A stretch of DNA of 21,383 bases from a virus, in IMG/VR virus record IMGVR_UViG_3300017527_000264, positions 1 through 21,383 of that record, one strand, 5' to 3'. Below, piece after piece: positions 4,495 to 21,383 of this stretch (the stretch's first letter is position 1; each line of letters begins with the position of its first letter). A program made the translations under genes and the position numbers. Under the pieces are notes generated by a model that did no database searches, had not been told where the DNA came from, and saw only the letters and a program-made list of their open reading frames with translations.

Positions 4495-6480
4495 TTATTG
4501 ATATTCCAGATAAATAACAATGGAAGTTGAAGCAGTCAAAGCAGTCAATGCTTCAAGTTTAATATGGATCTCATTAGAGCTATCAGCATCATATAGTTGA
4601 AAAGCATCTGTATACTCCCATATCTTCACAAGACCACTATTATCTGCATGGGTGTTGGCTGATTCCGTCATATAGACACTCGTTCCAGACGGAGTATCAT
4701 CAAGCCTCAAGTTCTCCGCTGTCCCACCAAGACACCGAGCCAGGTCGTATTTAACCAATCCTGCAATGTCGTCAACTGTGAAGGTAGTTGTACCGCTTGC
4801 CGCCTCCCCGTTGAACTCGGTATAGGTAAGATTAAAACTCCAGTCTTTAATCAACTCATCCTCAGTCATGGAATCAGAGTTATAGACTGATAACCTAAAG
4901 CTCTCATTGGTATCCGCTGTAGGATCTGTGCTGATATAAGCCCACATTTTGCGAACAACAGGATTGTTTCCATTAACACTTGTGATGTTTCCAGTCTGCG
5001 TCTGATTGGCGGCATGGAAACCTGTGAGAGTCACCGTGCCTGTGTTTGCAGCCCCAAGGTTAAGGTCGGTAAAGCTCCCCGCTGCCGGAGTAGTGCCGCC
5101 TATGGTAGCATCAACTGTACCTGCATTAATATCTGCGGTGGTTGCAACCAGGCTTGCAATAGTAGCTGTTCCCGCTACACCGTCCACGATAATCTCGTCA
5201 CCGTCAGGCAACATCTTAAAGCCTGTCCAGGTCGTGCCGTCACAATGGTATATCCCCACCATCTCCGGTTCAAGTATGCCTAACGTAGCAGGGGCATCAG
5301 TTTTAACGGTTAGTGTTTCCCCCGTTCCATTCGCCATATTGAATATAATAAACAATAGGTCTGTTGAACTCGCTTCAGCGGGTAGCGTGACATCCCTGTC
5401 AGAACCATTTGGATCAAGCTTTTGTACCACCATATCGGTTATAACAAGCGTTTTGTTAGCACTTAGTGTTGCTACGCTCTGATCGAGCTTTAACCGATCT
5501 ATGTCAGCGGTTCCAGCAACCAAGCCTTCTGTAATTATAGTCCCATCGTCTGTTATCGTACCACTTGAAGAATTATCATCAAGCGTACAATTTCTCACAG
5601 TCAAACTTGCACTATTGGCTTGATATAGGTCATAATCAGTAGCATCAAACCAGCAATTTTCAGCAACAGCAATAGCATCGGCCCCACCATAAGCAGCTAA
5701 ACCACCGCTTGTACAAGCCGCACCCTCTGTTACAACTGAATGAGAATTAAATACGCTTAGTGTGCAATCTTTATCCGCTGAATCATCAACGACCTCAAAC
5801 CCAGCCGCAGTATCAGCCGCACCTGATACCGTGGAATAGCACTGGTGAATGTGGACTGCCGTATCAGCCTCCGCTGTAGATTCGTTCTCCGCATGGATAC
5901 CGCTTGCGGCGGCATTGGTAGACGTGGCTGTTAGTTCACAGTTTAACACTTCAACGGAAGCGTCAACTATGCGGATTGCGTGTTGCGTACCGGCGTGGCT
6001 GTTGAGGGTGATCTCTAAGTTTCGCAGGTAAATGCCGGTCAAGACCGTCCCGCCAGTACCGTCAATCCTGACCCCAGGCGACGCACTGGCAGTCACATCA
6101 ATGGACAGGTTGTTAATCGCTACATTGCTTGCCGTAACATGAAAGACGTTCTTACTGTCTGTCACGGTGGCGATAGACGTAGCTCCCCTCCCATGACCGA
6201 TAAGGGTAATGGCTTTGGCAATGTCAATATCGTCAGTAATGGTATAAGTTCCCGCAGCAAGTATCAAAACATCCCCAGCTGTTGCCGCCGCAATCTCAGT
6301 CTCGATGTTATCAGTAATCTGTAAATATTTTACGTTACAATTCAACAGCTCAATATCAAAAAACTTTGGGCTTTTTGTATATCCATGTATCCCACCACCA
6401 CCAATACCAGAGCTTACAGCTATGGTAGCAGGCCAAACCATAAGCAGTAGTATGCTAAATAGCAATATCCATCGTTTCAT
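4495..6480 (-). CDS. Right-handed beta-helix tail spike/fibre with N-terminal signal peptide
   Basis: A 661-residue protein. It starts with a hydrophobic leader (K-R, then about 18 apolar residues, A-V-S-S) followed by a Gly-rich link. Residues 45-320 have the pectin-lyase-like pattern: the G-D-V-L-I-L-A-A-G-T-Y-T-I entry, an I-T-L-I-G-H-G turn, and repeated short strands with stacked Asn/Val/Ile. Residues 430-490 carry T-A-D-I-N-A-G-T and P-A-A-G-S-F-T-D-L phrases common in phage tail fibres, and the last 150 residues are a beta-rich terminal domain. It is probably a receptor-binding or glycan-degrading spike. No catalytic residues can be assigned. A strong AGGAGGTAAG site precedes the ATG. 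The gene lies between a small beta-rich protein and the LamG protein. Confidence 0.78.
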   Translation of the reverse strand: MKRWILLFSILLLMVWPATIAVSSGIGGGGIHGYTKSPKFFDIELLNCNVKYLQITDNIETEIAAATAGDVLILAAGTYTITDDIDIAKAITLIGHGRGATSIATVTDSKNVFHVTASNVAINNLSIDVTASASPGVRIDGTGGTVLTGIYLRNLEITLNSHAGTQHAIRIVDASVEVLNCELTATSTNAAASGIHAENESTAEADTAVHIHQCYSTVSGAADTAAGFEVVDDSADKDCTLSVFNSHSVVTEGAACTSGGLAAYGGADAIAVAENCWFDATDYDLYQANSASLTVRNCTLDDNSSSGTITDDGTIITEGLVAGTADIDRLKLDQSVATLSANKTLVITDMVVQKLDPNGSDRDVTLPAEASSTDLLFIIFNMANGTGETLTVKTDAPATLGILEPEMVGIYHCDGTTWTGFKMLPDGDEIIVDGVAGTATIASLVATTADINAGTVDATIGGTTPAAGSFTDLNLGAANTGTVTLTGFHAANQTQTGNITSVNGNNPVVRKMWAYISTDPTADTNESFRLSVYNSDSMTEDELIKDWSFNLTYTEFNGEAASGTTTFTVDDIAGLVKYDLARCLGGTAENLRLDDTPSGTSVYMTESANTHADNSGLVKIWEYTDAFQLYDADSSNEIHIKLEALTALTASTSIVIYLEYQ

Positions 6481-6813: not shown

Positions 6814-9413
6814 TGTCTTTCCTCCTTTTTATTTTCAATATCATCTAAAATTCTTTTGCCTGTTCCTGCTAACCACAAATTTATTCTCTTGTTAAGAATT
6901 GCCATATTTACTTTAGCCCTTCCAGGTTTATCCATCGGTAACAATAAAGCTTGAAGCAATTTGGGATCTTTAGATAAAATCGCATCATGGACCATTTGCA
7001 CAGCCTTATCTCTTGTTAATCTTGTAGAAATATTCTTAGCAGCGCCAGAATACATCTGTGCCATCTGCAAGCTACCACCGGCAGATTCTTTGCCCATTCT
7101 ACCACCTAATCTTGCCCCGAACATTCTTGATAAAAAACTCAACCCGGTAGACGCTATATCTTTCATAACTATATCGGGTTTATTCCCTTTGCTCTCTCGG
7201 AAAGCATCTACTTTTGCAAGCTCTTTTCCTATACTTCTCATCCTTGTTATTTGTTCGGGTGTGAATAAATGTTTCAATGAGGCGTCAACCTTGCTGTTGT
7301 TAATAATAGACAATAAGGTTCTGCCAGACAAAGTACGTTCGCCGACATCGTTGAATCCACCAACATAAGACTTTTCCAACATATGATCTACAAAGGCACC
7401 CTTTAATCCCATAAAAGCATTCCCCGTGGGGTCTTTGGCAGATTGCAAAACAAGTTCTTTCGTCATTAGATCGGGTCTATTTGATTTCAAAATGGTTTTT
7501 ACTGTGTTATCTAAATCGTCAATTTTGAGAAATTTAGCCGATACAGATATTTTAGGGTCTCGCATGGCTTTTTTCCGAGCATCCATACTAAAACGGGTTT
7601 TGTTGGCAAACTCTTGTGCTTTAGCCGTGTCTGATATTTGGCTTCTCAAATCAGGGAACTTATCTAAAATCGCCTCATTGTTTTTCATCCATCTTTCGGC
7701 TTTTAAGGCATTGACCTCCCCGGTAGGGGCCACATCATCTACGAAACTTCTCGCTAAATATCTTTCCGTGGCTGCTTTTGCGTCTTGTGTGATAACTACT
7801 TTTTCAAGGTCTATTGAACCTTTTGTTTTCATCCTACCAATGCTGATATCAAGTGTTAGATCGGGGTCAATAGCAGGTGCGCCTGACTTGGAGTACCCAA
7901 GGATTTTTCCAACAACACCTGATTCAAACCTTGTTTTAAATTGTCTCGTAGCTGCAAGGGCTGCTTGCAATGTGGCGGCTTCGGGTGAATCTGCAATACC
8001 CGCCGCAATTCCTAAATCTTCAAGTATAGCATCTGCTACATCGTCCGCTATCCGTGCTTTGTTCCACTGCCCGTCCTTTCTTGCCTTGCGTGATGTTTCA
8101 AGAAGTTTAGAGCGAAGTCCTTGCATTTCTTTAAGGGTTGTCCTTTGTATCTTATCGTTTTTTATGATTGGAGATTTCTTGAGAGGAAAAGGAATGTCAA
8201 CCTTTTGGGCATCTGCTAAATCATCAAGGATTGATCCATAAACTTGTCGTGTTTTATCAATGCCTACCTCATAGTCTTTGGGTACATCTGCCCATAGTTT
8301 CTGTGTTTCACGCTGTTCCTTTCTCATAACTGATTCAAGTTCACTCCTGACAACCCGTGATTCGGCTACTTTCCTTTGCGCAATCGGAAGACGATTAAGT
8401 TTCTGTTGTGCCATAGAAACTGCCTCGGCAATCCTCTTGTCCATTTTCAACTCAATAGCCGCAACACGCTTTCTTGTCATTTCAGCTAAAAATTCAGGTG
8501 CACCATACCCGAATTTTCTCATCTCACCCTCAAGTTTTGTAATTGATTTGCTTATTGCCTCCACCATTTCAGAATCAGCAACGGGATCAACTTCAGACAA
8601 GGACTTATATAGGGACAATAACTGTTTCTCTCCGGTTTTAACTACCGGCGGAAGATCGCTTATTGTGTCGCCACGGAGCTTGTTAAGGGATTCACCAAGT
8701 TTAGCAACCTGACCTTTGGTATATTCACCCGCCCTATATTTAGATCCCTTCTCAGTAAAGGGTAGCTGTATTTGCCGCAAGAATCTTTTGCCATACCTAA
8801 GAGCAAGCGCACCTGGGGTATGGAGTACCGCAAATGGTGCTACACCCCCGGCAACACCTCCGCCAACCTCTGAAAAAGCCTTACCTGTTGGACTTTCCAC
8901 ATCTTTCGCCAAACCTCTCCCCACACCTGCCCCCATGCCCCCGGTAGCTTCACTTATCATGGTAATATAGGGATGCTTAACCATAGACTGCCAAATAGAA
9001 TTGGCAATTGTCCCGACAAGACGGGTTCCCCCTGAAGCCATTTTAAGGGTTGCTCCAACCGGGGACAATAAAGCAGCAACTTCTCCAAGTCCCCGTCCCA
9101 TATGCTCTGAAACAGTTTGAGGTTCACGTCCTTCTTCGGGTAAACTTGCCCCTATTAATTCCATCCCTTTTTGTATGCTTTTACTGCCGCCAACAGGTTC
9201 AGGCAAGTCTACCCCTGGAATAAGGTTTACCCCGGATTTAATTAAATCAACAGGGGCACCTAATGTTTCTGCAATAGCCTTATTTACAAAGGGCATTGCC
9301 ACAAGGTTTGAATCTTCTTCTTTGTATTCATCCCAAGGACCAGATTCAATAGATCCCATTGATTCATAATCAAGTTGATCGTTTTGTTGGTAATCTTCCC
9401 AAGGGTTTATCAT
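6810..9413 (-). CDS. Large internal virion / DNA-ejection-like protein
   Basis: An 867-residue protein. I chose ATG at 9413, not the TTG at 9428: it has a GGGAGAAAG site and overlaps the upstream stop as ATGA. The start is acidic, with repeated P-W-(E/D)-(D/E)-Y. Residues about 45-200 hold Gly/Ala-rich apolar stretches able to form amphipathic or membrane helices. The rest is long, charged and helical, with many Arg/Lys. Size, composition and position after another internal-like protein match ejection proteins of short-tailed phages, which leave the head and cross the host envelope with the DNA. No transglycosylase or peptidase motif is evident. The role is inferred from composition and order, not from a recognised domain. 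Confidence 0.65.
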   Translation of the reverse strand: MINPWEDYQQNDQLDYESMGSIESGPWDEYKEEDSNLVAMPFVNKAIAETLGAPVDLIKSGVNLIPGVDLPEPVGGSKSIQKGMELIGASLPEEGREPQTVSEHMGRGLGEVAALLSPVGATLKMASGGTRLVGTIANSIWQSMVKHPYITMISEATGGMGAGVGRGLAKDVESPTGKAFSEVGGGVAGGVAPFAVLHTPGALALRYGKRFLRQIQLPFTEKGSKYRAGEYTKGQVAKLGESLNKLRGDTISDLPPVVKTGEKQLLSLYKSLSEVDPVADSEMVEAISKSITKLEGEMRKFGYGAPEFLAEMTRKRVAAIELKMDKRIAEAVSMAQQKLNRLPIAQRKVAESRVVRSELESVMRKEQRETQKLWADVPKDYEVGIDKTRQVYGSILDDLADAQKVDIPFPLKKSPIIKNDKIQRTTLKEMQGLRSKLLETSRKARKDGQWNKARIADDVADAILEDLGIAAGIADSPEAATLQAALAATRQFKTRFESGVVGKILGYSKSGAPAIDPDLTLDISIGRMKTKGSIDLEKVVITQDAKAATERYLARSFVDDVAPTGEVNALKAERWMKNNEAILDKFPDLRSQISDTAKAQEFANKTRFSMDARKKAMRDPKISVSAKFLKIDDLDNTVKTILKSNRPDLMTKELVLQSAKDPTGNAFMGLKGAFVDHMLEKSYVGGFNDVGERTLSGRTLLSIINNSKVDASLKHLFTPEQITRMRSIGKELAKVDAFRESKGNKPDIVMKDIASTGLSFLSRMFGARLGGRMGKESAGGSLQMAQMYSGAAKNISTRLTRDKAVQMVHDAILSKDPKLLQALLLPMDKPGRAKVNMAILNKRINLWLAGTGKRILDDIENKKEERQ

Positions 9414-11266
9414 TTTACTTTCTCCCAACTATTTTTATCAGCAGGATTTCCGCCTTTAAACCTATATCCCTTCTTTATCGTTCCGACTTTTGGACCTTGT
9501 GGTGCACCAAGTATAGTAAGAAAAGCTTTAATATCATTGGCCGCTGACAAAGCATTTTGCCTGCTATTTTTGGGCATTTGGACATTTTGTGATGTTTTTA
9601 TTTCCTTTTTAAGTCGCCAACGTAAGTATGTATCTATGGCTTTTATCCTTTGTTGCATCATTTTGGGGTTGTCTAATATCGCCGGAGAAAGGTTTATCTC
9701 TTTTTGCAACCTTTTGATTTCGGTTGCGGGGAATCTTGGATTAATAGATAGAGACCGGATAAGGTCATTTTGGGCAGCTTCAACAAACTGCCTTGCAAAC
9801 AATGTTTTCTCTGCAACTGGCGCACCAACAAGCCCAGTTGCAACTGAGCCAGCCGCTAATCCGGTTGACACAGGGCCTGTCGCTAAACCTGAGAGTTGCC
9901 AAATAGTCTGTTTTGGTGGTTCTATTTTTGCAGGCTTAGTGGGTTTCACCCCCTTCTCTGTCATTGGAATAGTTTCACCTGTACCAATATCAACCAAAGT
10001 GGTATTCCCGCTTACGGGGTCAGACACAACTTTGATTGTTTTAGCTGCAATACGCATCAAAGTTTGATCGTCTACATTGGGATATGCTTTTTTAAGTTCA
10101 TCAAGTTTAGAGGTTTTCCCTTCTTTTCCTGCTTTAATGCCTAACTCAAAGTTCATAACCTCAAGAGAATTAGGTCCGTATCTATCGACAAGGGCTTGTC
10201 GTTTTTTGTCATACTCTGTTGGTTTTCCCTTTGCTTTCCCTTCCTTCCCCTCTTCATATCTACGCTTGCTCTCTACCCGGCTTTCTTCTAACTCTTTCTT
10301 CCTGGTAGCCTCTTTACGCACATCCTCTTCATAATCCTGTTTGTCTTTGAGAGCTTGGATTCCCCCTGCAAGCATCTTGTTCATGTTCTCTATGTCAGCT
10401 TTGAACATATTGAACAATTCTGACTTGCGGTTTTGACGGGCTTGCTTAAAAGCAGCTGCCTGTTGCCTATTGGGGGCGTAACCCCATTGAAGCCCGGTTG
10501 TACTTTCAAATAAAGCTCGTTCCTCTTGAGCATATTGGGCAAGGGCCATCCTCTGCGGGTTCATCGTTCTCGGATCTTTACCGCCAAAGTGTGTTTCGAT
10601 AAAGCTCTCGATAAAAACAGGGATGTCATACTCTTCTGGTTCACTATCAATAATTTTCTGTTTCTCGGCTTTTTCTCTGGCAATGGATTCCGCATAGGTA
10701 TCCTCCATGCGTTTCGCAAAGTCTATGGCATCACCCATTGCGGCGGGGTCGCCGGAATATCCATAACCGCCTACAGCGGCTTCAGCACGATCACCACCAG
10801 TTGCCTTAATCGTATCGGGATCATTCCTCTGGCTTATGTTCGGCAGATATTCCCAATCTTCAGGGTGTTCTTTATCATCAAGATTATCCGTAAACTGCCT
10901 TACATTCTCGGCTGGTGCCGTAATAGCCGCCATTGCCGGGTTGTTGGTAAATTGTCTGACTGCCGGACTCAATTCTTCCATTTGTTCTCCCTCTTGTGCG
11001 AAAACATTTTTATTCTGTGACATTCTATTTCTTGCATGGCTAACAGCTTTTTGTACAATGGCCTTAGTGGGTTTCCCGTTGTTTAACAGATATTTTATTT
11101 CATCCTGAGATAATGTTGGCACAAGGGCCGGTATATCTACTTCTTTTCCATCAAAATTAACTCCAATGGATAGTTCAGTAGAAACTTTCCCGTCCGGCCT
11201 TTGTAATGTCCCAAAATACCCCTGACCTTTTGGGGTGCCATCTGCCCTCATGCCCCACTCTCCCAT
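9410..11266 (-). CDS. Internal virion-like protein with conserved N-terminal phage domain
   Basis: A 618-residue protein. Residues 1-85 form a compact domain seen in many phage virion proteins (from memory), with a G-x-G-Y-F-G-T-L-x-R-P-D-G entry, an S-I-G-V-N-F-D-G-K strand, a P-A-L-V-P-T-L-S turn and a helical V-S-H-A-R-N-R-M end. A long charged, coiled-coil-like region follows (about 200-370). A Gly/Ala/Val-rich apolar stretch lies near residues 455-480, followed by an A-Q-N-D-L-I-R-S-L segment. The C-terminus (G-Y-R-F-K-G-G-N-P-A-D then S-W-E-K-V) is another phrase typical of phage virion proteins. The ATG has an AGAGGATAATT leader. It probably lies in the capsid core or ejection machinery. 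Confidence 0.68.
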   Translation of the reverse strand: MGEWGMRADGTPKGQGYFGTLQRPDGKVSTELSIGVNFDGKEVDIPALVPTLSQDEIKYLLNNGKPTKAIVQKAVSHARNRMSQNKNVFAQEGEQMEELSPAVRQFTNNPAMAAITAPAENVRQFTDNLDDKEHPEDWEYLPNISQRNDPDTIKATGGDRAEAAVGGYGYSGDPAAMGDAIDFAKRMEDTYAESIAREKAEKQKIIDSEPEEYDIPVFIESFIETHFGGKDPRTMNPQRMALAQYAQEERALFESTTGLQWGYAPNRQQAAAFKQARQNRKSELFNMFKADIENMNKMLAGGIQALKDKQDYEEDVRKEATRKKELEESRVESKRRYEEGKEGKAKGKPTEYDKKRQALVDRYGPNSLEVMNFELGIKAGKEGKTSKLDELKKAYPNVDDQTLMRIAAKTIKVVSDPVSGNTTLVDIGTGETIPMTEKGVKPTKPAKIEPPKQTIWQLSGLATGPVSTGLAAGSVATGLVGAPVAEKTLFARQFVEAAQNDLIRSLSINPRFPATEIKRLQKEINLSPAILDNPKMMQQRIKAIDTYLRWRLKKEIKTSQNVQMPKNSRQNALSAANDIKAFLTILGAPQGPKVGTIKKGYRFKGGNPADKNSWEKVK

Positions 11267-12272: not shown

Positions 12273-12650
12273 TTATCCTCCAAGTCCATATTTCTTCATT
12301 TCGGTTGTGACATCATTTAAACTATCTATGTCATGCCCACATTCGGGATTGCCGCATAACCAATAAGACTTCCAATCGCCCTCTATCTGATCCTCTGGAC
12401 CAGTATTAACCGGATAGCAGTACATAACACCTTGACATTTTGGGCATTTCGGGGCTTTCCTTGCGTATTCGGCTTTAGATTGTTGCTGTTCTTGCTCCCT
12501 TTGTCTTGCATGCAGGTCTAAACCCTCCATATACTTAAGAAACTCATCCATGCCCCTGCCGTTCTGCCGAAGGTTTATTATCAGGTTCCGGCACTCCTGA
12601 AGAACCTTGCCGGTCTTACCTGCTGTTAACTGTTTCATTGTTATAGACAT
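12273..12650 (-). CDS. Zinc-ribbon protein
   Basis: A 125-residue protein. I chose ATG at 12650: it overlaps the upstream stop as TAATG and has a GGAAG site, whereas the longer frame would start with TTG at 12665. The first 65 residues are helical with a Gln/Glu-rich end. The second half has a C-P-K-C knuckle and, about 30 residues later, a C-G-N-P-E-C knuckle followed by G-H-D, a typical four-cysteine zinc-ribbon arrangement. Zinc ribbons bind nucleic acid or protein; inside a run of virion genes this could be an assembly factor or minor virion component. Its specific role is unknown. It lies between the Cys-rich Ig-like pair and the internal virion proteins. Confidence 0.68.
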   Translation of the reverse strand: MSITMKQLTAGKTGKVLQECRNLIINLRQNGRGMDEFLKYMEGLDLHARQREQEQQQSKAEYARKAPKCPKCQGVMYCYPVNTGPEDQIEGDWKSYWLCGNPECGHDIDSLNDVTTEMKKYGLGG

Positions 12651-13000
12651 TAGACGCACTTCCAAGTATATTTATTATGACTCGTAACGTAACAATCCCC
12701 TGGATTCCCACTACAGTTACAGCCTCCAGCACTACAACAAGCAGTAGGCGAACCACAGGGGGGATCAGCCTGATCCCAAGAAGGAGATCCGTTATAGCCA
12801 CACAGATTAGTATTGCTCATCAACCATCTCTCATCCCCGATAATTGTATCAGAACCTACAGCGACACAGCTTGCAGAAATACACCAATTCGCCCCTGAAG
12901 CATTACTTGTGTAATCCAAAGACCAATCACTATCACTCTCATTTCTAATACTCGCAGTTACTACGGTCCCACAATCATCTGTTATAGTTAACGAGGCCAC
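12650..13000 (-). CDS. Cys-rich continuation of the upstream Ig-like protein, after an in-frame TGA
   Basis: This 116-residue frame is in the same reading frame as the gene ending at 13025, separated from it only by the TGA and eight sense codons. The GTG at 13000 is the only early start and has no Shine-Dalgarno sequence before it. The first strand (S-L-T-I-T-D-D-C-G) looks like the closing strand of an Ig-like repeat whose first strands lie upstream of the TGA. The rest has 10 more cysteines (11 in 116 residues), many in C-C, G-C-N-C and D-C contexts, suggesting disulfides or metal binding. It is best read as the C-terminal part of one 412-residue product, made by readthrough or recoding or broken by mutation. 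Confidence 0.6.
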   Translation of the reverse strand: MASLTITDDCGTVVTASIRNESDSDWSLDYTSNASGANWCISASCVAVGSDTIIGDERWLMSNTNLCGYNGSPSWDQADPPCGSPTACCSAGGCNCSGNPGDCYVTSHNKYTWKCV

Positions 13001-13008
13001 CGGCCCGT
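12991..13008 (-). promoter_or_regulatory. Hairpin with bulged U downstream of the in-frame TGA
   Basis: Read on the minus strand, ACGGGCC and GGCCTCGT pair over 7 bp with one unpaired T in the 3' arm and a GGT loop. The hairpin begins 16 nt after the TGA and its loop begins 23 nt after. A stable hairpin with a G at the start of its loop at this distance is what bacterial selenocysteine insertion elements require, although in E. coli fdhF the bulged U is in the 5' arm. The hairpin could also simply promote readthrough. It contains the GTG start of the downstream frame, which would hinder initiation there. Confidence 0.4.
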
Positions 13009-13024
13009 AGTCTTTAGCGGCACC

Positions 13025-13858
13025 TCAATCTCCATCTGCACAATCAAGCTGCTCGTTTCTATTGCTGGATTCGTAAGAAGCTGCTCCATTACCATTCCAA
13101 GTATAACCCGTTCCGCTTACCACATAGGTAAACGGTGCTTTCCCGCCCGCTACATACACATCAATATGGCTATTCTTAACAATGGTATCAGGTGTATTAT
13201 CATCATCGAATGTCAAAACAGGGTCAACGGGACACGGATAACAATACACCGTCACTTCGTCCGTGCAGGTTATTCCGTTCCCCTGGTCTAACTTTACCTT
13301 TAACTTAAAACTCTGTTTCCCATTTGGAACGCAATCATTCCAACTATCCCTCGGAATTACGATAAGATTCCAATACCCATCATCACTTTGAACAAGATCA
13401 ACAACCGGGATTATTCCGTCCTTGGTTTTCAGGACGCTCCAATTTGCCATCCTTTCAGAATAATACCGTGAGAATTTGCACTTTACTACACCGCCACACT
13501 CCCGGTTCCCCCCATTGCCCACACAAAAGATAGAACATCCCTGCAAACCTTCAGGCATGTGAGCATCAAACCATTCTTCGTCAGTAGACTCAGGGATTGG
13601 CCCCGAAAAGTCAGGCCAAATCCAATCCGGCCATGCAAAGTTCGGAAAGGGGGGCATGAAAAACTGTTCCATTTCAGGATATTCGTCAGACAAATAAGGC
13701 TTTTTGAACTCTGACTGAGCCTCAAGCCTTTGGTTAAACATGGCCTTGCCGGTCACACCCTTCATCATTTCCCGATAATCACCCTCTGGCCCATACATAT
13801 AGGGTTTACGGTTGTAATCCTTATTTGTTGGGATTTGCTGTTTTGTCCTGATCGTCAT
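13025..13858 (-). CDS. Cys-bearing Ig-like structural protein, ending at an in-frame TGA
   Basis: The 277-residue frame from ATG 13858 (a later ATG at 13798 is possible) ends in TGA at 13025. Residues about 55-95 are Pro/Trp/Phe-rich (P-D-W-I-W-P-D-F). A middle beta region holds C-x-x-x-C and E-C-G-G-V-V-K-C pairs, followed by a strand with T-V-Y-C-Y-P-C-P. The last 70 residues look like the first strands of an Ig-like repeat (V-A-G-G-K-A-P-F-T-Y-V-V-S-G-T-G). That domain is incomplete at the TGA and its expected last strands appear directly downstream in the same frame. There are nine cysteines. Coming right after the nozzle, it may be a tail-associated or needle-like part. Its start overlaps the 53-residue gene by 38 bases. 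Confidence 0.62.
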   Translation of the reverse strand: MTIRTKQQIPTNKDYNRKPYMYGPEGDYREMMKGVTGKAMFNQRLEAQSEFKKPYLSDEYPEMEQFFMPPFPNFAWPDWIWPDFSGPIPESTDEEWFDAHMPEGLQGCSIFCVGNGGNRECGGVVKCKFSRYYSERMANWSVLKTKDGIIPVVDLVQSDDGYWNLIVIPRDSWNDCVPNGKQSFKLKVKLDQGNGITCTDEVTVYCYPCPVDPVLTFDDDNTPDTIVKNSHIDVYVAGGKAPFTYVVSGTGYTWNGNGAASYESSNRNEQLDCADGD

Positions 13859-13982
13859 AATCCATCGGCTTTGGTTTATCCCAAAAGCCACTCTTGTTAA
13901 TAACGGTGGGGTCTATGCCCCGTTCTTCGTTGAGGTCTTTGCACTTGATGAACTTTTCTGTCCATCTGACTTGCTTTTCCAT
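13821..13982 (-). CDS. Small 53-residue charged protein
   Basis: A short frame that is easily missed: ATG at 13982, overlapping the nozzle gene stop as TAATG, with a GAGGGA site five bases before, and a TAA at 13821. The protein is hydrophilic and charged, with one cysteine (I-K-C-K), a W-T-E-K-F-I-K start and a D-K-P-K-P-M-D-Y-D-D segment. Its 3' end overlaps the start of the Ig-like protein in another frame. The overlap start, ribosome-binding site and filled gap favour a real gene. I recognise no family; a small tail or chaperone factor is possible. Confidence 0.6.
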   Translation of the reverse strand: MEKQVRWTEKFIKCKDLNEERGIDPTVINKSGFWDKPKPMDYDDQDKTANPNK

Positions 13983-16654
13983 TAATGTCCCTCTGTAATA
14001 AATATCTCTAACCCTAAATCCAAGAGATAGAATCCCGTAGCACCGGAAGCCTTCTCTATTTTCAGGGAGATATGGCTATCTTTTACGTTTACCCCCACCA
14101 ACCACCGCCTAAGAACTTCGCTTGTCGTTTCTGCCGACATATCTAACGTCAAGGTATCGGACCCCGCCACTCCATTCCGGTATGGCGTTATTGTGCAATT
14201 CCCCGATGTCTGACTCTTAAAACGAATGAGAAGGCGTCTCAGCCACATCTCAGCGGCTTTTGCGTCTAATTCAATAGTGCAATAAGGTGCAATCGCTGTT
14301 GTTACGTCTAAGGCCGTTGTGTTAAGTCTGTAAATAAATCCATCATCCGTTCCGCCCCCATACTGCAAAATTGGGATGTCCCCACTTGCGGCTTCCACTT
14401 CAGTATGGCAGGATAGTTCTTGGGCGGGGAAATCAAAACTCCACACCTTATCCACTAAATCAAATACAGGAAACACGTTCGGCACGCTGGACAGTATTTG
14501 ATAACCCTCCCCGCTTGCCATAATGTCTGTATCAATAGACAATGTAGTAGCACTATCAATCGCCGTAACTAAAGCCGTGGTGCTGTCCGTGGTGTTTTTT
14601 ACCGTATCACCGATCTTTATCGTTCCTGCAACCTCTTTACCCGGCACCTTGCGTGTGGTAAAAGCCCCTGCCGTGTCTACCAGTTTATCGCTGGTCGTAG
14701 ACGTAGCAGTACTGGTCATAAGGGGATACCCACTCACAAGCCCTAATTTCAAAACATTAAATCCCGAATCGTGGTCAAGCCACATTTCGTTTTCACATCC
14801 CCGCCTGATACACTCCGAAAAGGTGGGATCAAAATAATTCTGAATATTGTCGGAAATAACGGAAACCGTTCTACCGTCCGATACACAAACCCCATAATGA
14901 CTGATAAAAAAGGCTAATGTCTTTATCTTCTCTTCCGTGGCCGTGGAAGTCAGGACTCCATCAACCACAACCGCACTTTTAGCATTGAATGTGCCAACCT
15001 TTGAGGATATGACCAGCTTGCCGAATGTCGGGGGGGAATAACCTTCAAATAAGGTCAGGCAACCCCCGTTCCGCCCTTTTTCCTTTTGCCAAACCATAAG
15101 CTCATTGTGAAAGCGTTTCATGCAGACAACTTCATTACTTCGCCCATCTCCGGCCTGTAAGATACCGTAGTCAATGCCATTCAAGTAATTTAGGTTATTT
15201 TTGGCAGACAGATAGATATATGAAGGAAACCTGTCAAATGAATAGACGCCCCTGTCTTTCCATACCTCATTACATTTGCCTATGCCCAATTCTGCAATAT
15301 CAAATGTAGGCATGGTTTCAATCGAGATAATCACATCATCATTAAGGGTCTTGTCTACTTCAAAAAAATACCAATAACTGTAATACCTTGAAGTCTGAAA
15401 CTGTGTCGGTTCGGCTGTGGCAAGTTTGTCAAATGTCACCCACCCGCTGTTCGCCATACCATTTGTCCCATCCGTAATCGTGTCGCAGGTAACAAAAGCA
15501 TCCCCGTCCCAACAATAAACAGCATCAATCTTCGTGGCGGCAGTGGTGTTCGGTTTTTCTCCTACGTCCACATAAAAGCCGTTTATGTTGTCAAACGAAT
15601 TGAAATATACCTTGTCCGATGCTGTCATTTCGTCTATTTCGATTGTGTCATAACTGAATAGTTTGTAGACGCTGGCAGAGTCATCATTGAACCTGGCTTC
15701 TATGGCGGGGACAGGCACACCATCCCACACGTTCGTAAGGTCGTTAAAGTCACTACCATAGGTCAAACCCGTAACCGTACACGTAGCATGAAGCTGTGTG
15801 TCGGTTTCCCACCTGTACCAATATCCTGAAATACCAAACATCAGACAGGGAATCTCGTCAGACGGGGAACTCCATGTCATTGAACCATCTTGCCCTAAAG
15901 TTTTGGCACTTGAGATAGTCCCGTCTGTTTCAGATGTGTCGGCCCATGAATTATCACTTTTTCGGTATCTCAAGGTTCCCACCGCCGCCGTATCGTTAGC
16001 CGTTCCAAATGTCCACGTCAGCTTATTTGCCGGAACCGGGCAACAGATAAGAACGCATTCATGGCTTGCATAGACATCTAATTCACCAAGATCAGCGTAT
16101 GTGGTTGTCAAACCGTCTGTGACATCTACCGTATAATCATATCCATCTTCCGGTACGTTGGGTAAAGCCGCATCACTATCAGACTTCACAAAGGCTTTCA
16201 CGTAATTGGCTGTTCCGGCATAAACTTGATGTTGGTCAACACCGTTAGAATGGATTAGGACATCATCTATATTCCCCCAAGATGCGGGAATCTGGCTTGC
16301 GCTATTGCTTTTAAGCTCGGACCCAAAAGCCCCGGTTGTAACGGTAGGGGGGGCATCTGTGGCGGCAAGAATGTCACCATCTGACATTTGGGCTAAGAAA
16401 TGGCGTTCTGTACGCTTGCCCTTGGAGAATTGATACATGGAAAGAACTTTATTGGTAGAGTCTGCCGTTGTATGCTTTTTAGCACACCCCGGCCTTTGCT
16501 CAAATCCAGGGTGTCTTGCCCTTAAATCCTGAACCATTGAGAAACCACCAGAAGGGATTAAGGCTAATTCTTTGCCTGTGTACGCCCCGCCCCTGAAAGG
16601 CTGTGAATTAAGGTCTGTAAATTTCTTTACGCCTGTTTTCTTTACGCTTCCCAT
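13982..16654 (-). CDS. Large tail nozzle / stabilisation-like protein
   Basis: An 890-residue beta-rich protein. The start (L-N-S-Q-P-F-R-G-G, then M-V-Q-D-L-R-A-R-H-P-G-F-E-Q-R-P-G) is a typical opening of phage nozzle or stabilisation proteins, related in role to T7 gp12 and P22 gp10. Repeated aromatic beta motifs such as S-G-Y-W-Y-R-W, Y-Y-S-Y-W-Y-F-F and Y-S-F-D-R-F-P-S-Y-I-Y suggest propeller blades. Residues about 645-720 form a small inserted beta module (D-T-A-G-A-F, I-G-D-T-V-K-N-T-T-D, A-T-T-L-S) resembling one in the preceding adaptor gene. It would close the tail channel below the adaptor. ATG overlaps the upstream stop as TAATG. Role inferred from the N-terminus, size and order. 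Confidence 0.68.
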   Translation of the reverse strand: MGSVKKTGVKKFTDLNSQPFRGGAYTGKELALIPSGGFSMVQDLRARHPGFEQRPGCAKKHTTADSTNKVLSMYQFSKGKRTERHFLAQMSDGDILAATDAPPTVTTGAFGSELKSNSASQIPASWGNIDDVLIHSNGVDQHQVYAGTANYVKAFVKSDSDAALPNVPEDGYDYTVDVTDGLTTTYADLGELDVYASHECVLICCPVPANKLTWTFGTANDTAAVGTLRYRKSDNSWADTSETDGTISSAKTLGQDGSMTWSSPSDEIPCLMFGISGYWYRWETDTQLHATCTVTGLTYGSDFNDLTNVWDGVPVPAIEARFNDDSASVYKLFSYDTIEIDEMTASDKVYFNSFDNINGFYVDVGEKPNTTAATKIDAVYCWDGDAFVTCDTITDGTNGMANSGWVTFDKLATAEPTQFQTSRYYSYWYFFEVDKTLNDDVIISIETMPTFDIAELGIGKCNEVWKDRGVYSFDRFPSYIYLSAKNNLNYLNGIDYGILQAGDGRSNEVVCMKRFHNELMVWQKEKGRNGGCLTLFEGYSPPTFGKLVISSKVGTFNAKSAVVVDGVLTSTATEEKIKTLAFFISHYGVCVSDGRTVSVISDNIQNYFDPTFSECIRRGCENEMWLDHDSGFNVLKLGLVSGYPLMTSTATSTTSDKLVDTAGAFTTRKVPGKEVAGTIKIGDTVKNTTDSTTALVTAIDSATTLSIDTDIMASGEGYQILSSVPNVFPVFDLVDKVWSFDFPAQELSCHTEVEAASGDIPILQYGGGTDDGFIYRLNTTALDVTTAIAPYCTIELDAKAAEMWLRRLLIRFKSQTSGNCTITPYRNGVAGSDTLTLDMSAETTSEVLRRWLVGVNVKDSHISLKIEKASGATGFYLLDLGLEIFITEGH
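14495..14720 (-). other. Inserted beta module in nozzle-like protein
   Basis: Residues about 645-720 of the nozzle-like protein. The sequence has the pattern L-V-D-T-A-G-A-F, I-G-D-T-V-K-N-T-T-D-S-T, V-T-A-I-D-S-A-T-T-L and ends G-Y-Q-I. It resembles residues about 225-300 of the adaptor-like protein, including the shared N-T-T-D-S and S-A-T phrases. It is probably a small exposed beta domain. Confidence 0.6.
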
Positions 16655-17859
16655 TATCGCCTTGCCTTCAGGTTAACCGTCCACCGTGATCTCTTCTTTT
16701 CCGGGTGTAGATTGTATGCTTCCTGCCTTACTGCCCTATCCCACCATTGAAAGAGCGCATCCCCGAAATTAGGCTCCTGGTCACGATATTTATAGAGAAA
16801 CGCAGCATATTTCACTATGGCCTCCGTAGCGTGTTGCCTGAACCGATAAACGCCATAATCAGAGTAAACTGGGTCCGGTCTTTCTGTAAAATCAACTCTT
16901 ACAATGTCCCCTGAATCCGATGGAGGCGGGTCAAGATAAATCTCAAGCCTACCCTGTGGCTGAATGACATAGGCATCGTCTTTGTCCCAATCATTGCCGG
17001 TTCCACCGAACAAGGCACAGACTAAAGCCGTGGCACTTGTTATGGATAGCACCACACCATCACTGCTATCTGTGGTGTTATGGATTATGTCACCCTTATT
17101 TACATAGTCAGTGGTGATAAAGACCCCGGAACTGTCGGTCAAGGTACACTCTCCCGCCGAATCATCCCCGTCAGAGGTAGCCGTGCCGGTTATCTGAGAA
17201 TAGAGGGCTTGTTTATCCCTGATAGAAAAACTCGTTGGGACATCTGCGGATGAGGCTTTTTCAACCCTGTAATGGCTTGCCGTACCCGAAGGAGTACCCG
17301 CCCCGTTCCAGCCGGTAGAAGCCCTTGCAAGATCAGTGAAAACGGCAATGGTATCATCTGCGTTGGTCGTTGTAGAAGCCTCTCCAAGATATGCCCAAGA
17401 TTCATTTCCTTGAGTATCGGTAAATCTTAACTGATACACCGAATCCCCGGATGAGGTCTCCCAATCCCCGAAATCCTGCCCCGTATCCTGAATGGTTGTA
17501 GCAGAGGTCGTCAATGTGCTTTGCTGAATATCGTAGGTCTGGACGCTGTTCTCGTGTATGATATCCTCGTAATCCTTGAACTTCACAAAATGGTCTGTAC
17601 CATCCGTGTATCGGACATAATACCGATTCTGCTTGTCCATTAAGAATAGTTTCAAGAATCCGGCAGGCAGGGTATAATTTGGCTGACCCTCTACCGTCTT
17701 AAACTCATACATGGAGGTCAGGCATTTTGTTCTTGCCGTCCATTCCTTTGCGGCTTCCCAAAGAAAGTCATAGGAGCTTTTGTCATCAAGCCATGTCCCC
17801 ACGCTTTCTTCATTCAGGATTTGCTCTAACCGCCTGAGAAGGTCTTTGCCATCAGACAT
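16654..17859 (-). CDS. Head-to-tail adaptor-like protein with inserted beta modules
   Basis: A 401-residue protein. The helical start (residues 1-55: D-L-L-R-R-L-E-Q-I-L-N, then W-E-A-A-K-E-W) and the turn Y-T-L-P-A-G-F-L-K-L resemble podovirus adaptor proteins (T7 gp11 / P22 gp4 role), which form the ring below the portal. The end matches too: R-L-E-I-Y-L-D-P-P-P, a Y-R-F-R-Q-H-A-T-E-A-I-V-K-Y-A-A helix and F-Q-W-W-D-R-A-V-R-Q-E-A. Between them about 190 residues look inserted, as two Thr/Gly/Asp-rich modules (about 112-205 and 225-300); the second resembles a module in the nozzle protein. T7 gp11 is about half this length. The ATG follows a GGAGAA site in a TAATG overlap. Confidence 0.7.
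   Translation of the reverse strand: MSDGKDLLRRLEQILNEESVGTWLDDKSSYDFLWEAAKEWTARTKCLTSMYEFKTVEGQPNYTLPAGFLKLFLMDKQNRYYVRYTDGTDHFVKFKDYEDIIHENSVQTYDIQQSTLTTSATTIQDTGQDFGDWETSSGDSVYQLRFTDTQGNESWAYLGEASTTTNADDTIAVFTDLARASTGWNGAGTPSGTASHYRVEKASSADVPTSFSIRDKQALYSQITGTATSDGDDSAGECTLTDSSGVFITTDYVNKGDIIHNTTDSSDGVVLSITSATALVCALFGGTGNDWDKDDAYVIQPQGRLEIYLDPPPSDSGDIVRVDFTERPDPVYSDYGVYRFRQHATEAIVKYAAFLYKYRDQEPNFGDALFQWWDRAVRQEAYNLHPEKKRSRWTVNLKARR
16960..17187 (-). other. Inserted beta module in adaptor-like protein
   Basis: Residues about 225-300 of the adaptor-like protein. The pattern is L-T-D-S-S-G-V-F, K-G-D-I-I-H-N-T-T-D-S-S, L-S-I-T-S-A-T-A-L and ends A-Y-V-I, parallel to the module in the nozzle-like protein. 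At DNA level a TAAAGCCGTGG phrase and a GTGGTGTT phrase are shared with the nozzle module near 14570-14600. Confidence 0.6.
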
Positions 17860-20466: not shown

Positions 20467-21383
20467 TTACGAAACCACGTGTCCATAAATCCATCGCCAG
20501 TCAATAAAGCCAGCCGCACACCTGAAGTACACAGCCTGCATATACTGATAGGTTTTGAAATCCACGGTGTTCTTTGATTCAGGAGCAATCCTGTCCATCC
20601 AGATGAGGTCTTTCTTCATCTGAGACTTCCACACCATGAACCAGTTGTTAGTGTCGATGTCGTCCAGGCGGAGATACGGAATAACCTCATACCTGCCATA
20701 GTCCATATTCTTGTCCTGGGCAGCCGTATCGTAGCCTTTCGGAGTCCCAACGATCTCAAAGGCGGTATCGGCAAGGTTGTCAGGGCATACAATCGCCAAG
20801 TCATCCCCTACGTTAATCCGTTCAGAGATATCGTTTTTGAACTTCCGCATGAGCAATCTGGTCGCAGCAATAGAAGTCTTGCTCATTGCACTCGTGCCGG
20901 CATTATCAAAACCCGAAGAGGTAGAGGTACCGGACTTCGTGGTATGGGAACTCGAACACAGAGCTACATCCTCTTCGCTCTCCATGTAGTCAAAAGCCGT
21001 GGAAAAGGCATATCCGAAAGGACGGACACCCTTCTTTTCCCTAACCCTGTGAGCAGACTCCATAAGCCCTGCCGACCTGTTGTCGAGAACAGCGTACTTC
21101 TTGTCGTCAATGATCTTGCGGTTTGCAAGAATACCACCCGAATATTCCTTGGGTTCGATCTTGGTGTGATACCCCGGAGCGATACCGAGCCAAGAGATTT
21201 TTCCGTTAAACTCCGGGATGTCCGGCACGGCCCCTACGCTATAAAACTCTTCCCACGCACTATCTGAGGAAATCGTATTGTATAGTTTCGGAATCATACT
21301 GGGCAATTCCTTATACTTACTCTCGCTAACGCTACGGAGGCGTTTGTCGAGAAGTCTCACAAACTGAGAGCTATCTAATGGTG
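20467..21383 (-). CDS. Major capsid protein (partial, start beyond the right edge)
   Basis: The frame is open to the window edge: before the GTG at 21360 the codons still read P-L-D-S-S-Q-F-V, a typical opening of this capsid type, so the true start lies just outside. At least 304 residues are visible. Typical HK97-fold capsid features are the extended start, a Y-M-E-S-E-E-D-V-A-L-C-S-S-S-H segment before a Gly/Ser/Thr-rich loop, a spine-like helix (A-A-T-R-L-L-M-R-K-F), the A-I-V-C-P-D-N-L-A turn, and the end C-A-A-G-F-I-D-W-R-W-I-Y-G-H. It would form the icosahedral shell. Scaffold and portal genes should lie further right. Its C-terminus is intact, followed 35 bases later by the endonuclease gene. 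Confidence 0.8.
   Translation of the reverse strand, partial: PLDSSQFVRLLDKRLRSVSESKYKELPSMIPKLYNTISSDSAWEEFYSVGAVPDIPEFNGKISWLGIAPGYHTKIEPKEYSGGILANRKIIDDKKYAVLDNRSAGLMESAHRVREKKGVRPFGYAFSTAFDYMESEEDVALCSSSHTTKSGTSTSSGFDNAGTSAMSKTSIAATRLLMRKFKNDISERINVGDDLAIVCPDNLADTAFEIVGTPKGYDTAAQDKNMDYGRYEVIPYLRLDDIDTNNWFMVWKSQMKKDLIWMDRIAPESKNTVDFKTYQYMQAVYFRCAAGFIDWRWIYGHVVS

Follow-up and report, generated by a model that had tools for sequence, protein, structure and literature searches.

An in-frame UGA codon probably read as selenocysteine in an immunoglobulin-like protein of phage tail-region genes

The interrupted gene and its neighbours

The window analyzed in this study (the whole stretch of DNA, 21,383 bases) was an uncultured phage contig from IMG/VR. 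Over 16.7 kb it showed complete identity with a segment of the 31-kb contig 3300017613_004197 (sample 3300017613), and the window and the 17613 contig were therefore counted as one observation. The gene of interest occupied positions 12650..13858 of the minus strand and encoded 402 residues, with a single in-frame TGA as codon 278. Starting from the ATG at 13858, 277 codons lay ahead of the TGA (13027-13025, minus strand), and a further 124 sense codons separated it from the terminal TAA at 12652-12650, which overlapped the start of the next gene as TAATG (12648..12652, minus strand). This arrangement of TGA, 124 codons, and a TAA overlapping the next ATG had been described in the initial annotation and was confirmed to the base. 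The TAATG overlap also occurred in the homologous loci 31227, 33148, 33388, and 33153, and therefore in 5/5 genes whose end was covered. The gene in 33145 spanned the contig join (101-b terminal repeats) and read on to a stop adjoining the start of its next gene.

The recoded protein consisted of an N-terminal region, an Ig-like domain, and a Cys-rich C-terminal region, in that order. AlphaFold2 modeled the Ig-like domain (12938..13216, minus strand) as a beta sandwich with a pLDDT of 81 and a pTM of 0.77; the domain held the UGA, and its last two strands lay beyond it, in agreement with the earlier description of an Ig-like repeat that starts before the TGA and closes after it. The full-length AlphaFold model was too poor for use except in the Ig domain. 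Foldseek matched the domain, with modest TM-scores of about 0.3-0.6, to virion chains of phages N4 and Moo19 and to viral decorating, tail, SprB-repeat, and bacterial adhesin domains. The Cys-rich C-terminal region (12653..12937, minus strand) was reached only via UGA readthrough and ended in ...YTWKCV, the ending W.C being common to most TGA genes and uninterrupted Cys homologues. Searches of NCBIfam, Pfam, and PHROGs returned no significant family for the recoded protein.

The next gene (12273..12650, minus strand) encoded a 125-aa protein of zinc-ribbon type (Pfam Ogr_Delta, E 0.005, below cut-off), had homologues in 31227, 33148, 33145, 33388, and 29811, and was probably translationally coupled to the recoded gene. 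The upstream neighbour (13982..16654, minus strand) encoded 890 aa and had counterparts of about 50% identity in 33145, 14656, and 31227. Further upstream lay a gene of the SU10-type head-tail adaptor family (16654..17859, minus strand; Pfam SU10_adaptor, E 4.4e-8, above cut-off), which placed the recoded locus in the tail gene region, and a major head protein of Mu gpT type was encoded at 20467..21360 of the same strand (PF10124, E 7e-10; phrog_371, E 8e-14). The Cys homologue in 37308 was fused behind a tail-protein region (phrog_6079). The genomic setting suggested that the recoded protein probably belongs to the virion or the tail surface.

Positions 4495-6480 of the window encoded a 661-aa protein with matches of pectate-lyase/beta-helix type, likely a tail spike or fibre. 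Giant genes were found downstream, a few genes away from the recoded one, in 3300031227_000043 (41646-53576, 3976 codons) and in 3300033145_001155 (47806-58965, 3719 codons).

TGA or cysteine at codon 278

Three scans of IMG/VR yielded five further divergent TGA loci from other metagenomes (31227, 33148, 33145, 33388, and 33153), with a domain identity of 50-70%. In all six close loci (window/17613 and these five), the TGA stood at exactly the codon-278 column, within the motif ...LDCA[D/A]G[T/D]-TGA-[G/D]...VA.[I/L]TITD.CG.... A sequencing error, a nonsense mutation, or a decayed gene would look alike if judged from a lone in-frame stop in one contig. However, the same TGA recurred in five other metagenome contigs with an intact coding signal after it, which excluded the read error and the nonsense mutation that the initial annotation had listed as alternatives and left next to no probability for an explanation of this kind.

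Six more distant homologues (35698, 37308, 14656, 29811, 17971, and 22890) carried an uninterrupted gene with Cys in the same alignment column as the proposed Sec codon (13025..13027, minus strand). The Cys codon was TGC in 4/4 genes checked by codon (35698, 37308, 14656, and 29811), and in 37308 and 35698 the Cys lay within the same motif, LNCAAGT-C-G. These homologues ran through the site and continued into a Cys-rich C-terminal region of the same kind. The initial annotation had stated that in similar Cys-bearing phage Ig repeats the residue before this Gly-Ala is often Cys and had proposed aligning homologues across the position; the statement held in six homologues, and the alignment gave TGA (6) or Cys (6), with no other residue at the column among homologues with this Ig domain. 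When Sec was written as Cys, the column was invariant. The codon was TAA or TAG in 0/6 loci, though TGA made up only 22% of stops, and if the codon were a mere stop, six TGA out of six would have a probability of about 1e-4 at the observed usage, kinship ignored.

In the tree, one branch (support 77/57) set all six TGA genes apart, in line with one Cys-to-Sec change. Contigs 33388 and 33153 shared little else with 17613, indicating that the Ig-like domain moves between phages. Scans with the conserved N-terminal region added two of the Cys homologues of this Ig domain (17971 and 22890). An exact DNA motif scan with RAYTGYGCNGVNGGNACNTGAG gave 27 matches, with a coherent frame only in five already known loci, and no locus was added when the next gene served as the query. 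A tblastn search of phage and plasmid collections gave zero matches to the recoded protein.

Homologues of the N-terminal region (motif SEFKKPY; L078-L080, L082, and L084-L088) bore quite different C-terminal domains, and from its sequence the N-terminus of the recoded protein looks like an anchor for exchanged surface domains. A second Ig-like repeat, without a TGA, directly preceded the repeat with the TGA/Cys motif in L011 (33388; 9314-10627) and in L069 (5044-6282).

Coding signal, stop usage, and start codons around the TGA

Codon-position mismatch among the six TGA genes was.29/.31/.58 before the TGA vs.27/.28/.55 after it, and this near-equality indicated equal constraint on the protein ahead of and behind the TGA. 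The median open extension past 76 TGA stops in these contigs was 9.5 codons.

Because the TGA is apparently sense in the recoded gene, a change of the whole code, with TGA read as Trp or Gly in the phages or their hosts, was weighed. Yet TGA was the ordinary stop in 11/31 genes of the parent contig and terminated 59/270 of the remaining predicted genes across the six contigs (about 22%), which bore out the earlier statement that TGA is a normal stop elsewhere and the code is unchanged. No second conserved recoded TGA emerged from an all-against-all comparison of these phages with TGA read through, the leftover matches being antisense noise or natural gene ends. The probability of a code change is accordingly negligible.

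A true stop followed by a separate, self-starting gene would draw on the in-frame GTG that both the window and 31227 had 9 codons past the stop. In the window this candidate restart (12998..13000, minus strand) lacked a Shine-Dalgarno site, as had been stated for the GTG at 13000, and it was absent from 33148, 33145, 33388, and 33153. Locus 33388 had no start codon in the 50 codons after the TGA, and 33153 had only a TTG at +50. Neither a conserved start codon nor a Shine-Dalgarno site was found, such a split would cut the Ig domain, and the Cys homologues are single proteins. The pair of independently started genes that the initial annotation had suggested looking for in relatives was not seen, and the two-gene explanation, refuted for the family, is highly improbable for this locus.

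A different arrangement was observed in 3300033153_013534 (24481-25263), in which a 115-aa ORF and a TGA were followed by an immediate in-frame ATG ORF of 144 aa. The latter resembled an NlpC/P60-type lysin by eye, and the two were ordinary neighbours, unconserved elsewhere.

The hairpin behind the UGA

A hairpin resembling a bacterial selenocysteine insertion sequence (bSECIS) lay at 12991..13008 of the minus strand. It had 7 bp, one bulged U, and a GGU loop at 12999-13001, folding as first claimed, with 16 nt from the TGA to the stem and 23 nt from the UGA to the loop. The bSECIS model calls for a loop of 3-9 nt with a G at its first or second position, a stem of at least 4 bp, a spacing of 16-37 nt, and an MFE at or below -7.5 kcal/mol (PMC13188914). 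The window and 31227 each had the loop GGU at a spacing of 23 and -9.2 kcal/mol. The loop was GGUC at a spacing of 17 in 33148 (-9.3 kcal/mol), 33388 (-8.6 kcal/mol), and 33153 (-7.4 kcal/mol), and AGUU at a spacing of 23 in 33145 (-7.0 kcal/mol). The same search applied to the E. coli fdhF control, verified in 5,368 genomes, returned GGUC at a spacing of 18. All six TGA genes had their hairpins at the same codons, with G-U at loop positions 2-3 (6/6) and the register shifted to a 3-nt loop in the window and 31227. The loop, spacing, and stem rules of the model held in 6/6, and the MFE limit of -7.5 was reached by 4/6, with 33145 and 33153 narrowly missing it (constrained local fold). No hairpin was found at the corresponding place in the Cys relatives. 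The bacterial SECIS search suggested at the outset returned a hairpin within the loop, spacing, and stem rules in every TGA gene. Rfam gave no match.

Across an ungapped alignment of the six TGA genes, the stem was 91.7% paired and 4/6 pairs had changed on both sides. Out of 500 shuffles, none matched the observed pairing, double-change cells, or covariation score, and the signal vanished when the pairing partners were slid. Synonymous-codon shuffles gave p values of.013 for the window,.005 for 31227, and.036 for 33148, while 33145 (.11), 33388 (.12), and 33153 (.11) were not individually unusual. The combined p was 1.1e-4, the rows not being independent, or.005 when each close pair contributed a single row, vs.30 for the combined Cys rows. 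The hairpin appears supported at this level, not overwhelming alone, and is the weaker of our two main lines of evidence.

The hairpin also bears on programmed UGA readthrough without Sec, in which a near-cognate tRNA would inefficiently insert an ordinary residue and give a minor extended protein. Readthrough can be stimulated by a hairpin located 3' of the stop, and the Q-beta coat protein gene has the same layout, with a UGA inside a structural gene and a C-terminal extension behind it. Q-beta is an RNA phage in which an ordinary residue is placed at the UGA, and it is not known to have a SECIS-like conserved loop or a Cys counterpart. A short protein might be genuinely made here as well; however, the UGA was within a folded domain, not between domains, and a short form would miss two strands of the Ig-like fold. 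The Cys at the site in 6/6 uninterrupted homologues, a codon that was never TAG or TAA, and a loop and spacing that fit the bSECIS model likewise argued against ordinary readthrough, which we regard as improbable.

Recoding of SelB type or by a special tRNA, with Cys (or Ser) inserted at the UGA by an unusual host tRNA, would agree with the Cys carried by the relatives, and some bacteria are known to have variant UGA-reading tRNAs that carry other residues. Such insertion is nevertheless a rare trait compared with Sec, and the hairpin resembled the E. coli fdhF SECIS. As TGC, one base off, would serve equally, the retention of TGA in six lineages would then need another reason, and we consider insertion of Cys or Ser distinctly improbable.

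Selenocysteine insertion and the role of the residue

Our finding that the UGA was kept where relatives have Cys, together with a selenocysteine-type hairpin, suggested that Sec is very probably built in via host machinery. The TGA/Cys column, the hairpin in the TGA genes, and the absence of separate starts all supported the selenocysteine reading put forward in the initial annotation, and we place the probability that the recoded gene encodes a selenoprotein with Sec at UGA codon 278 at roughly 0.87, on sequence evidence. In the proposed mechanism, host SelB with Sec-tRNA-Sec would bind the hairpin 17-23 nt past the UGA, and selenocysteine would be inserted at codon 278 in the infected bacterium. 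This insertion would complete the Ig-like domain and the Cys-rich C-terminal region. An ancestral Cys was probably replaced by Sec in one branch of this phage-borne Ig-like domain, with the module spreading among otherwise different phages.

In the domain model, Sec sat in the loop that follows strand 61-66 and came five residues past Cys273 (C-x4-U). A selenylsulfide between Sec278 and a neighbouring Cys, for instance Cys273 (motif CxxxxU), is possible, and Sec may act in redox chemistry or as a cross-link. Bonding with the conserved Cys of TD.CG (C296) was also considered but appears less likely, the modeled strand order suggesting loops at opposite ends. Possible functions of the Sec include a redox switch, a cross-link, or a selenium-dependent choice between short and long forms.

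The balance of our findings leans toward a family of Sec-containing virion proteins, in which phages with no Sec tRNA or SelB detected in their contigs would complete a surface Ig-like domain by the host selenium pathway. Assembly or infectivity would then depend on how much selenium the host supplies, possibly with a selenium-controlled ratio of short to long protein. If this holds, bacterial viruses exploit the host selenium pathway for a selenoprotein shared by several phages that otherwise differ, Sec probably acts in a protein of the virion surface, and phage reproduction is tied to selenium availability. Gene callers split such genes in two, and therefore more phage selenoproteins may be hidden.

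Relation to known systems

The recoded gene shared with fdhF-type bSECIS selenoproteins an in-frame UGA, Cys-bearing homologues, and a small G/GU-bearing loop 17-23 nt on, but differed from them in being a phage tail-region gene with an Ig-like rather than a redox-enzyme fold. An Ig-like phage protein is atypical beside the known prokaryotic selenoproteins, which are mostly redox enzymes of cells. Like phage Ig-like virion domains (decorating/tail proteins and SprB/Big-type repeats), the domain was a predicted Ig-like beta sandwich; unlike them, it had UGA/Sec where relatives have Cys. A word search of the whole text of a 2026 account of 119 prokaryotic selenoprotein families showed no phage or Ig-like protein (PMC13188914), and the words phage and virus were missing from the 2022 and 2026 prokaryotic selenoprotein reviews. 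The glutathione peroxidase of a pox virus is a case of a viral UGA read as Sec by host machinery (PMC8310308); that system involves an animal virus, a eukaryotic SECIS, and a redox enzyme, in contrast to the bacterial virus and Ig-like protein described here. By comparison with mostly open-access literature, the genes in the tail region of these phages appear to form a selenoprotein family that is new.

Phage genes for tRNA-Sec have been described in Basilisk-like phages (PMC6145125) and in wastewater huge phages (PMC10747093), and the accessible parts of these two papers named no phage selenoprotein alongside them. As far as those parts extend, our phages presented the reverse situation, a candidate selenoprotein with no detected tRNA-Sec.

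Host machinery and reference genomes

Neither tRNA-Sec nor SelB was found in the phage contigs, which implied host machinery for Sec insertion, and these phages would rely on the Sec machinery of a Sec-using host. A scan of bacterial genomes returned only a weak Flavobacterium repeat, with no prophage and no host clue. Direct terminal repeats were present in 3300033145_001155 (101 bases, 61.7 kb) and 3300033388_002544 (114 bases, 45.6 kb), and the two contigs are probably complete phage genomes. They would be the best references for host matching.
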